Shown here piece by piece: positions 28,122-32,981 of a DNA stretch of 48,262 nucleotides. How positions within the stretch are numbered: the first letter of the stretch is position 1; the number at the start of each line of letters is the position of its first letter. The position numbers and the translations under genes are program-made. The DNA comes from Candidatus Zambryskiibacteriota bacterium (GTDB lineage Bacteria > Patescibacteriota > Minisyncoccia > Phycocordibacterales > Zambryskibacteraceae): the NCBI GenBank assembly GCA_016177225.1, contig JACOVQ010000006.1:1-48262 (forward strand). Reading direction: 5' to 3'. The notes beneath the pieces are model-generated. The model was given only the letters and a program-made list of their open reading frames with translations, did not search any database and had not been told where the DNA came from.

Positions 28122-30242
28122 ATGAACAGAGATTATCCTCTAGAAAGAGTCAGAAATTTTGGCATTATCGCGCATATTGACGCGGGGAAAACGACTACGA
28201 GCGAGCGCGTGCTTTTTTATACCGGTTCGCAACACAAAATCGGGGAAGTGCATGAAGGAGAAACTACGACAGACTGGATGGAGCAAGAGCGCGAGCGTGG
28301 CATCACTATCACCGCCGCCGCGGTTACCTGTTTTTGGAAAAATACTCGCTTCAATATCATCGATACTCCGGGGCATATCGATTTCACCGTGGAAGTTAAA
28401 AGGTCTCTCAGAGTTTTAGACGGCGCGGTCGTCGTCTTCGACGGCGTGGCCGGAGTAGAACCGCAGTCCGAGACTAACTGGCGCTACGCCGAAGAGGCTC
28501 ATGTGCCGCGAGTTTGTTTTGTAAATAAATTAGATAGAACGGGCGCATCTTTTGAACGTTCATATCAATCTATCTTGAATCGTCTTTCTAAAAAAGCTGT
28601 TCGCATGCAGATTCCGATTGGAGAAGAAGGCAATCATGAAGGCATCATCGACCTTTTGAAACTGAAGGCTTACTATTTCGAAGGGGATATGGGCAATAAA
28701 GTTGTGGAGAAAGAAATTCCAGAAAATCTGAAAGCGGATTCCGAGAAGTATCGAAGAGAACTTATTGAAAGGATTGTAGAAAATGACGAAGATTTGATGA
28801 GCTTGTATCTTGAAGGCAAAGAAATTTCTCTCGACGAGCTTAAAAAAACTTTAAGAAAAGCCGTTATTGAAAACAAGATTTTCCCAGTGCTCACAGGTTC
28901 TGCTTTGAAGAATAAAGGAGTGCAACTAGTACTCGACGCGGTGGTAGATTATTTACCGTCTCCATTAGATATTCCACCGGTCAAAGGCATTGACCCTCGC
29001 ACCGGAGAAGAGGTAGAGCGCAAGGCTTCAGATACGGAACCCTTCGCGGCGCTTGCTTTCAAACTCCAAGCGGACCCGTTTGTGGGACAACTGACATTTT
29101 TTAGAGTCTACTCTGGCACAATCGAGAGCGGTAGTTATATCTATAATTCAACCACCGGCTCCAAAGAACGCCTTGGCCGCATCGTGCGCCTTCAAGCCGA
29201 CAAGCGCGAAGAAGTGAAAAAAGTTTTTGCCGGAGAAATCGCGGCCGCCGTCGGTCTTAAGGATGCGAAGACTTCCCATACATTTTCTGACGAAAATAAT
29301 CCGATTGTCTTAGACCAGATAAAATTTCCAGAGCCGGTTATATCTTTGCGCATTGAACCGAAAACCAAAGCCGACCAAGAGAAAATGGGCATGGCACTTA
29401 AGCGCCTTTCGGACGAAGACCCGACTTTCAAAATTAAATCAGACCAAGAGACTGGCGAGACGGTCATTATGGGCATGGGCGAATTGCACTTGGAAATTAT
29501 CGTCGACCGCATGAAGCGCGAGTTCGGGGTGGAAGCTAATGTTGGTAAGCCGCAAGTGGCTTACAAAGAGACTATCCGGGGTGAAGCAGAAGTGGAAAAT
29601 AAATACATCAAGCAAACCGGAGGCAAAGGCCAGTATGGACACGTTAAAATTAAGATTAAGCCTCTGCCTCAATATGACCCGGAAGAAAAAGTGCCGAAGA
29701 ATGCTCATCGAGAACCTGGATTTGAATTTATCAACGCTATCAAAGGCGGTGTCATTCCCCAGGAATTTATCCCGGCGGTAGAGAAGGGTGTGCGTGAAGC
29801 GATGGATAGAGGAATACTTGCAGGTTATAAAATGACGGATATTTCGTGCGAATTAAATTATGGTTCTTACCACGACGTTGACTCTTCTGAAATTGCCTAC
29901 AAAATTGCAGCCTCACAAGCCTTTCAAGAAGCGGCTAAAAAGGCACGCCCAGTGCTTCTCGAGCCAATTATGAAAATAGAAGTGGTAATGCCGGAGAAGT
30001 TTATGGGTGACATTACCGGCAACCTCTCCGGCAAGCGCGGGCAAATCGAGGCGATGGAAGACCGTGGCGAACTCAAAGTGGTGCGCGCCAAAGTGCCTCT
30101 CTCAGAAATGTTCGGTTATGTTACATCTCTCCGCTCAATGACCGAAGGCCGCGGCTCATCGACTATGGAATTCGACCATTATGCTGTTGTGCCAACTAAT
30201 GTGGCGCAGGGAATTATTGAGGCGCGTACTGGTGGAAAATAG
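28122..30242 (+). CDS. fusA: Elongation factor G
   Basis: [22 protein letters not shown]; full-length EF-G. Confidence 0.98.
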
Positions 30243-30287: not shown

Positions 30288-30430
30288 CGGGAGCAAGAAC
30301 AGGTGGCAAATGAGCCTTATTTTAAGCCATTCAGGAAGAGATGGAAAAAGAACATCGGAGACTGGAAAGGGTTTCCGACGAATCGAGAGCCAAACGTTCT
30401 GGTCGCATCGATTAGTTCTTTTGGAGTTTT

Positions 30431-30467: not shown

Positions 30468-30565
30468 GGGAAATCACGCGGTTCGTGATTTCCCTTCTTA
30501 TTCAGCCCACTGAAAGTTTAGTGGGTTGATAGGAATTCATAGAAAGCGGGTTACCGCACTGGTTT
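30468..30565 (+). repeat. Structured repeat, copy 1
   Basis: GGGAAATCACG-CGGTT-CGTGATTTCCC TTCTTATTCAG [stem] TTGATAGGA ... GCGGGTTACCGCACTGGTTT. Confidence 0.75.
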
Positions 30566-30615
30566 GAAAACTCTGTAAGTCCTGACCGAAGGGCAGGCAA
30601 GAGTAAGGAGGATAT

Positions 30616-30801
30616 ATGAATTATGATGAGATTATGACCCTAACACACGAGCTTCGGCTCGAGCTGTTAGTGGCGGTGGAGACGGTGGCGCATCATGCTG
30701 ATGTGCCGCTCAATCTGACTGACGCCGAGGGTGACACCCACTCTCGTCCCATGGCGGATGTCCTGCGGGACATCCGCAAGTTCCGACGCTTCGGAACTTA
30801 A
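30616..30801 (+). CDS. 61-aa hypothetical protein
   Basis: AAGGAGG SD 6 nt upstream; lies between the two repeat copies. Confidence 0.6.
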   Translation: MNYDEIMTLTHELRLELLVAVETVAHHADVPLNLTDAEGDTHSRPMADVLRDIRKFRRFGT

Positions 30802-30809
30802 AGGTTTTC

Positions 30810-30902
30810 GGGGAATCACGCGGTTCGTGATTCCCCTTCTTATTCAGTCCGTCACATAAGTGATAGATTGATAGGATGAAGGCGGGTTACCGCACTGGTT
30901 TT
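30810..30902 (+). repeat. Structured repeat, copy 2
   Basis: GGGGAATCACG-CGGTT-CGTGATTCCCC TTCTTATTCAG [different stem] TTGATAGGA ... GCGGGTTACCGCACTGGTTT. Confidence 0.75.
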
Positions 30903-30970: not shown

Positions 30971-31252
30971 ATGGAACCGATTTTTTTCGATCTAGAAAAT
31001 GACCGTGCGGTTTTGGAACATGTGACCAGCGATTTAATCGCATGGGCGCACAAAACTCGCCGAGCCCACACGGATGGCGCGTGGGTAAAATGTAATAATT
31101 GCTGGGAGAAAAAGTTCCTAGGCGACGAAGTACTCGTCGTGTATGAAACACGAGGCGAAGTAGTATACAAAAATGTGTACTGCTCTGTATTGTGCCAACG
31201 GCAATACAGACTGAAAAGCCTCGCCAAGAAACAACGTTGGGCAAATAAGTAA
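30971..31252 (+). CDS. 93-aa hypothetical protein with Cys pairs (possible zinc-binding)
   Basis: VKCNNCWEK...YCSVLCQRQYR; upstream GTGGAG and ATG. Confidence 0.6.
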   Translation: MEPIFFDLENDRAVLEHVTSDLIAWAHKTRRAHTDGAWVKCNNCWEKKFLGDEVLVVYETRGEVVYKNVYCSVLCQRQYRLKSLAKKQRWANK

Positions 31253-31270: not shown

Positions 31271-31300
31271 AGCCCCGATGCGCGTGCGCGCATCGGGGCT
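31271..31300. terminator. Bidirectional terminator
   Basis: 14-bp perfect stem AGCCCCGATGCGCG-TG-CGCGCATCGGGGCT between convergent genes. Confidence 0.8.
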
Positions 31301-31656: not shown

Positions 31657-31746
31657 ATCCTGTTAGAAGCAGGTCGCGGTCAGTGAGCTAATCAATAACT
31701 ACTGATAGTCTTTCGTTGAAACCGTGACCGCGGCTTCTAACAGGAT
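31657..31746 (+). promoter_or_regulatory. Element A: structured tuf leader
   Basis: ATCCTGTTAGAAGC/GCTTCTAACAGGAT plus CGCGGTCA/TGACCGCG stems. Confidence 0.55.
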
Positions 31747-31787: not shown

Positions 31788-32981
31788 ATGGCAGCAGAAT
31801 TTGACAGGTCCAAGCCGCACATTAATGTAGGCACCATCGGTCACGTTGACCACGGCAAGACCACCCTTACGGCCGCAATTCTTAACGTGCTTCATCGCGC
31901 AGGCAAGAAAGCGACCGTGAAGAATGTCGACCAAATCGACAATTCTCCCGAAGAGAAAGCCCGTGGCATTACTATCGCCCTCTCACACTCCGAGTACGAA
32001 ACTGACGTAAGACACTACGCTCACGTCGACGCTCCCGGTCACGCAGATTACATCAAAAACATGATTACCGGGGCCGCTCAAATGGACGGCGCTATTTTGG
32101 TGGTGGCGGCCACTGACGGCGTGATGCCTCAGACTCGCGAGCACATTCTTCTTGCCAAGCAAGTCGGTGTGCCGAAAATCGTGGTATTTCTCAACAAGTG
32201 TGATCAGGTTTCTGACAAGGAACTCATTGCTTTGGTTGAAGAAGAAGTTCGAGACCTCTTAAACAAGTACGAATATGACGGCAAAAACGCTCCGGTTATC
32301 AAGGGTTCGGCCCTTAAGGCTCTCGAAGCTTCCGGCGTAGACGATGAATGGTCTAAGCAGATACTTGCTCTTACTGATGCTCTCGACACTTACTTTCCAA
32401 TTCCGATTCGCGAAACCGATAAACCGTTTCTTATGCCTATCGAGGACATTTTCTCCATTGAAGGCCGGGGCACGGTAGTAACTGGACGTATTGAGAGAGG
32501 CAAGGTAAAAGTGGGTGAGGAAGTTGAAATTATCGGTATCAAAGATACTGCGAAGACCACTGTTACAGGCATCGAGATGTTTAACAAAAGTCTTCAAGAA
32601 GGCATTGCCGGAGACAACGCCGGAGTGCTTCTTCGAGGCGTGAAGAAAGAAGACTTGCATCGCGGACAGGTTCTTGCTAAACCAGGAAGCGTGACTCCGC
32701 ATACCGAGTTTACCGCCGAGGTTTACATCTTAAAGAAAGAAGAAGGCGGACGACACACCCCATTCTTTACTGGTTACAAGCCTCAATTCTACATCCGTAC
32801 TACCGATGTTACCGGCGAAGTCACCCTCGCCGAAGGTGTAGAAATGGTAATGCCCGGCGACACGGCAACCTTTACTGTTAAATTGGTCGCTCCAGTCGCG
32901 CTTGAGAATGAACAGCGCTTCGCCATCCGCGAAGGAGGCAAGACTGTTGGCGCCGGTGTTGTGACTAAGGTCGTTAAGTAA
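31788..32981 (+). CDS. tuf: Elongation factor Tu
   Basis: [19 protein letters not shown]; full-length EF-Tu. Confidence 0.98.

Follow-up and report, generated by a model that had tools for sequence, protein, structure and literature searches.

Among the closest described counterparts of the element analyzed here is the putRNA of phage HK022, an RNA of approximately 70 nt with two bulged stem-loops, which brings about antitermination without a protein by acting on RNA polymerase (PMC9378689). The element, which folds into two hairpins (P1 and P2), shares with it the length of approximately 70 nt, two adjacent bulged stem-loops, the apparent placement as a cis-acting leader and several sites per genome, and it meets the geometry of a putRNA in that its refined covariance model (R2) has 67 positions and two helices with a conserved bulged U in P2. 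It differs in that putRNA serves phage early promoters, whereas the element lies in cellular arrays, before successive genes and often with boxA; neither contact with RNA polymerase, which putRNA makes at the zinc-binding domain of beta', nor a sequence relationship to putRNA has been demonstrated for it.

The second counterpart is boxA, which is established as the NusB-S10 site of rRNA antitermination (PMC4807359, PMC10250234). As in rRNA leaders and lambda nut, boxA stands beside hairpins, its letters are identical to those in the rRNA leaders of the same genomes, and the fixed position beside a hairpin expected of a Nus site is found, in the window only in degenerate form. Unlike those sites, P1-P2 is a distinct covarying fold that is absent from rRNA leaders and precedes orphan protein genes, and many of its copies have no boxA. 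Leader RNAs before long operons also mediate processive antitermination in the case of the LoaP/dfn hairpins (PMC12691694) and of EAR and canT (PMC11658703), which are likewise structured but have one leader per operon, while the element occurs once per gene, lacks a UNCG tetraloop in its consensus and comes without a NusG paralogue. The specialized NusG paralogue that a LoaP/RfaH-type system would require does not accompany the arrays, and a LoaP-like factor is ruled out, as 21 of 22 genomes have a single NusG, whether they contain arrays or not.

The window, that is, the whole stretch of 48,262 nucleotides under analysis, comes from a small Candidatus Zambryskiibacteriota genome of 455 kb in 15 contigs. 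In it, fusA (28122-30242) and tuf (31788-32981) bracket two copies of the repeat, each followed by a short ORF, and the interval contains the following features.

30415-30421, + strand: boxA-like GTTCTTT, 46 nt upstream of copy 1 P1; weak, a single occurrence
30468-30494, + strand: copy 1 P1 hairpin, 11 bp, loop CGGUU; terminator-like with its UUCUUAUU tail
30496-30534, + strand: copy 1 P2 hairpin, 17 bp, with the conserved bulged U at 30501 and a variable tip
30546-30557, + strand: copy 1 GCGG-GTTA-CCGC hairpin, local to the window's genome, then ACTGGTTTGAAAAC, possibly a degenerate boxA
30570-30604, + strand: copy 1 start-proximal hairpin, directly 5' of the Shine-Dalgarno sequence AGGAGG (30606-30611)
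30616-30801, + strand: ORF61, cargo gene 1, an orphan
30810-30836, + strand: copy 2 P1 hairpin
30838-30876, + strand: copy 2 P2 hairpin, with the conserved bulged U at 30843
30882-30893, + strand: copy 2 GCGG-GTTA-CCGC hairpin
30971-31252, + strand: ORF93, cargo gene 2, an orphan
31271-31300, + strand: intrinsic-terminator-like hairpin, 19 nt after ORF93, closing the array

The P1-P2 core spans 30468-30534 in copy 1 (68.6 bits, E 6.5e-13) and 30810-30876 in copy 2 (67.9 bits, E 9.3e-13), and in each of them a single linker base separates P1 (11 bp) from P2 (17 bp, one bulged U). An earlier sequence-only reading had described two copies with shared blocks ahead of two small genes; copies, blocks and coordinates are as it gave them, and ORF61 and ORF93 both exist, with AGGAGG a few nt before the ATG of the former. 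It had also pointed to a compensatory change in the first stem and to a middle segment that differs between the copies yet pairs in both, and these are borne out by five compensatory pair changes, one in P1 (A-U/G-C) and four in P2, where two one-sided changes and one C-A mismatch (copy 2) are found as well; the P2 tips are almost wholly different, with pairing retained in both copies. The GCGG-GTTA-CCGC hairpin that it took to close the unit is present in both window copies and not in relatives, in which this part varies and conservation stops at the end of P2. Its claim of selected RNA structure is upheld by fold z-scores of -6.2 and -5.7, with none of 200 shuffles folding as well, by a control in which sliding the partners by 1-3 columns reduced pairing from 98% to 38-50% and double changes from five to 0-1, and by the covariation described below. 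The hairpin at 30570-30604 has a z-score of just -1.7. A CxxC...CxxxC pattern in the predicted ORF93 product suggests that it may bind zinc. Farther downstream, the tuf leader contains a perfect 14-bp inverted repeat (31657-31670 and 31733-31746, ATCCTGTTAGAAGC and GCTTCTAACAGGAT, spacing 62 nt), which sits downstream of a promoter-like TTGACT-N17-TACCAT.

A covariance model built from the two window copies alone (R1), the check which the same reading had proposed, found matches in ten other genomes, which belong to different families within the order (E 1e-7 to 6e-4); in several of these, additional copies lie close by in the same orientation. It had no match in 16 further genomes of the window's genus. 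Exact-pattern searches in relatives returned nothing, and the covariance model alone succeeded. With R2, the element was detected in 65 of 397 genomes of the order (44 of 179 genera) and in 24 of 384 genomes of a class sample that included other orders; these counts are lower bounds, since scoring in the sweeps was limited to some of the candidates in each genome. Outside the class, 315 phylum-wide genomes yielded just one case (G857), which is doubtful, since both strands match at one palindrome. When 85k named genomes were scanned by pattern and the matches checked with R2, there remained Kaiserbacteria, Taylorbacteria, Nomurabacteria, another Paceibacterota genome and one further bacterium; pattern matches outside CPR (Niastella, Dyadobacter, archaea and others) failed R2, which gave no confirmation of viral matches either. 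No third copy was found in the window's genome at this sensitivity (150 of 152 candidates scored).

In the window and seven array loci, Rfam release 15 (4227 families) gave only tRNA at the gathering score, and a permissive search gave sub-threshold partial matches only. No paper on the element was found in open-access sources, most subscription journals and preprints being outside the scope of the search. The element is an RNA leader family of many ultra-small Paceibacteria-type bacteria, and this family and the architecture of its arrays appear to be new, while the mechanism proposed below would be a variation on a known kind.

In a sequence-based alignment of 19 cores (A5), 92% of cells are paired and two-sided changes occur at 21 of 28 pairs, amounting to 111 cells as compared with 38 in shuffles and 10-25 in slid versions. 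For 88 copies, the share of paired cells is 92.5%, and two-sided changes number 549, versus 141 in shuffles; it should be noted that this larger alignment was fitted to the model and hence leans towards it. The conserved letters of the 88-copy consensus are nearly all paired, the exception being the bulged U of P2, which is 99% conserved. Two pairs are mostly U-G or G-U, wobbles which would be A-C mismatches on the opposite strand, so that it is likely the mRNA-sense strand that folds and the RNA of the coding strand that acts.

The surroundings were described from a set of 110 copies in 39 loci, in which genes were called by a simple script. There are several copies (up to eight) in 25 of the 39 loci, and no locus has copies on mixed strands. 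The next gene downstream lies on the strand of the element in 97 of 107 cases (median distance 70 nt), as does the previous gene in 107 of 110. The cargo genes are short (median 131 aa), mostly one ORF per unit and usually orphans, few having a Pfam match; PADLOC assigned some of them to Csx3, Csx20, Csx16 and a DHH hydrolase. Recurrent housekeeping neighbors of the arrays are TrmB/ruvC-yebC-ruvB, xer-rpsO-NYN-pnp, rny-hup and fusA. In 21 of the 39 loci, the first element is preceded within 3 kb by a TrmB-family gene, 17 times divergently oriented; one locus has such a gene downstream. As genomes carry 0-8 occurrences of PF01978 each, chance alone would account for about one or two such loci. 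As separate observations, cargo related to the accessory proteins of type III CRISPR systems (similar to AAA-Csx3, to Csx20 and to a DHH-type hydrolase) lies at L063:7471-8148, L075:8247-8627 and L023:9953-10732, and two loci (L065 and L081) have what, inferred from sequence, is a phage-like setting with terminase-like and serine-recombinase genes, L065 also with a DNA methyltransferase.

GTTCTTT occurs at most 45 nt after P2 in 22 of the 88 copies, where 0.75 would be expected (an approximately 30-fold enrichment), whereas its reversed form is found in one of the same copies and its reverse complement in none. In all, boxA is present in 22-28 of the 88 copies, about a third, typically 4-7 nt after P2. 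It is also present in the rRNA leaders of several element-bearing genomes, that of the window's own genome reading TGTTCTTTAAAATTGAAT, and rRNA-type boxA (TCTTTGACAA) is found at the array heads of L023 and L028. An origin of P1-P2 from rRNA leaders was considered and is unsupported, R2 having given no match there.

The explanation preferred here, to which about an even chance may be given, is that the element is a boxA/put-like antitermination leader, repeated along operon-like arrays of orphan genes. The conserved P1-P2 core (~67 nt) is a cis-acting leader folded on the coding strand and followed by boxA in many copies. In this model, as it emerges in the nascent transcript it would, together with boxA where present, load the core Nus factors, NusB-S10 as in the case of rRNA leaders, or contact RNA polymerase directly in the manner of HK022 putRNA, or both. 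Elongation through poorly translated orphan genes would then resist termination, mainly Rho-dependent polarity, and with one leader per gene, the array could gain, lose and exchange genes and still be expressed. At the head of a typical array, the divergent TrmB-family regulator would probably control the promoter, and a terminator is often present at the end. Of this, the RNA family with its fold and strand, its place ahead of same-strand genes, the boxA enrichment, the link with TrmB and the turnover of cargo rest on the sequence comparisons; the loading of Nus factors or RNA polymerase, antitermination and control by TrmB are inferences. An action mainly against Rho is inferred from the distribution of intrinsic terminators, which are not enriched inside the arrays (0.35 per kb versus 0.42 on the other strand) but often close them, an intrinsic-terminator-like hairpin following the last cargo gene within ~50 nt in at least ten loci, the window included. 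Against antitermination, it has to be said that it is inferred without any transcription or binding data, and that about two thirds of the copies lack a strict boxA, which is degenerate in the window. The missing enrichment of intrinsic terminators, the lack of R2 matches at rRNA leaders and the lack of a NusG paralogue weigh on the same side.

If, on the other hand, the element were a structured leader of another kind, governing mRNA stability, processing or translation or binding a ligand or protein, the processivity of RNA polymerase would be unchanged; this is a possibility to be kept in view, though it falls short of being probable. The elements directly precede start codons, the ATG is buried in a strong hairpin in about seven copies, and P2 is shaped like a protein-binding bulged hairpin. 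Start-codon pairing is, however, not above that of control genes (0.49 versus 0.59 in the controls), by which general start-codon sequestration is rejected. A riboswitch would be expected to have an unpaired ligand core and coherent genes, neither of which is found, as the bulged U is the only conserved unpaired letter, unlike in aptamer cores, and the cargo functions are unrelated. The enrichment of boxA would also be left unexplained.

The turnover of cargo raises the question of whether the element is (also) a recombination site of integron-like cassettes, acting as folded single-stranded DNA, which is doubtful. The arrays do resemble those of integron attC sites in having same-strand, mostly single short orphan genes, in cargo turnover and in exchange between families. 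In two genomes of one genus (G178 and G216), identity is 82-86% for the xer, rpsO, NYN and pnp flanks, while the cargo has been replaced entirely, with no protein in common. Families f62 and f82 share an NDK unit, both of its elements included, at 90% identity, with RuvB at 79% and the other flanks at 50-76%. A Xer-like recombinase gene also lies near eight loci. Homology breaks, however, ~125 nt upstream of P1 or at start codons, that is, outside the element, and the conserved G-U pairs are those expected for coding-strand RNA. By inspection, the R and L core boxes of attC (GTTRRRY ... RYYYAAC) are absent from the fold ends of the 88-copy consensus. The Xer-like gene looks like a housekeeping gene of the conserved xer-rpsO neighborhood, and no dedicated integrase is common to the arrays. 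From the two roles that the sequence-only reading had left side by side, cis-regulatory or cassette, the former is favored over a recombination cassette, though the arrays look cassette-like. It can be suggested only tentatively that they form an undescribed mobile gene-cassette system of Paceibacteria-type CPR, in which TrmB-controlled arrays at a few conserved chromosomal slots would hold exchangeable orphan and defence-related genes, each with an antitermination-type leader whose region doubles as homology for swapping.

It is quite improbable that each unit is insulated by P1 in the role of an intrinsic terminator or attenuator, with P2 as its antiterminator-side partner. P1 with its tail is terminator-like by score in both window copies, and at least five T are found in the 8 nt after P1 in 62 of 88 copies, but this tail is broken by a conserved A and is itself the 5' arm of P2, a stricter terminator test is passed by only 13 of 110 copies, and P1 and P2 are adjacent rather than mutually exclusive. 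That a functionless chance palindrome was recently duplicated, as might be supposed from there being only two copies in this genome and none in the 16 others of its genus, can hardly be credited, since it is refuted by the strong covariation across 19 and 88 copies and the conserved context in 44 of 179 genera; both outcomes which the sequence-only reading had named as fatal to it, a lack of further homologues and negative covariation with a recent segmental duplication, thereby failed to occur.

As compared with the rest of the family, the window is an outlying, reduced member, its array having two units, no TrmB gene beside it and only degenerate boxA letters after P2. With boxA degenerate or displaced and TrmB missing, the array either works through P1-P2 alone or is decaying; that it was acquired laterally is probable, by inference. 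The sequence-only reading had missed boxA, the association with TrmB and the array context, none of which is visible in this two-copy member.

Through its RNA signature, the element makes hypervariable gene arrays searchable in a very large group of mostly uncultured bacteria with otherwise streamlined genomes, and it opens their orphan and defence-related genes (e.g. Csx3- and Csx20-like) to systematic listing. Should the antitermination mechanism be true, antitermination leaders would here be used over and over, once for each gene, which would account for the ability of small genomes to express interchangeable foreign genes from a single promoter.

Three further noncoding features were observed in the arrays. 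A second conserved module, ACAAAATCCGGTNGTGTAAATCAAGGTAAA...TTTTGTCCCCGTTT...GGAGCAGAACTTCC, is found at L023:4989-5086, L028:9027-9118, L062:13043-13148, L066:7377-7476 and L150:9719-9826 (element-oriented coordinates), mostly 10-30 nt after the preceding stop, and has no Rfam match; four of the five lie 35-105 nt ahead of P1. A conserved hairpin of ~70 nt, TTCCTCTTCGCC...GTAAGAGGG, lies near the array heads of L023, L028, L063, L064 and L066, where it adjoins TrmB in four of the five loci and is similar across families. Between P2 and the start codon, a start-proximal hairpin, CAGGTGTGCCAA...ACACCAG, recurs in several families (L028:9787, L029:9392, L069:7281 and L081:4407).
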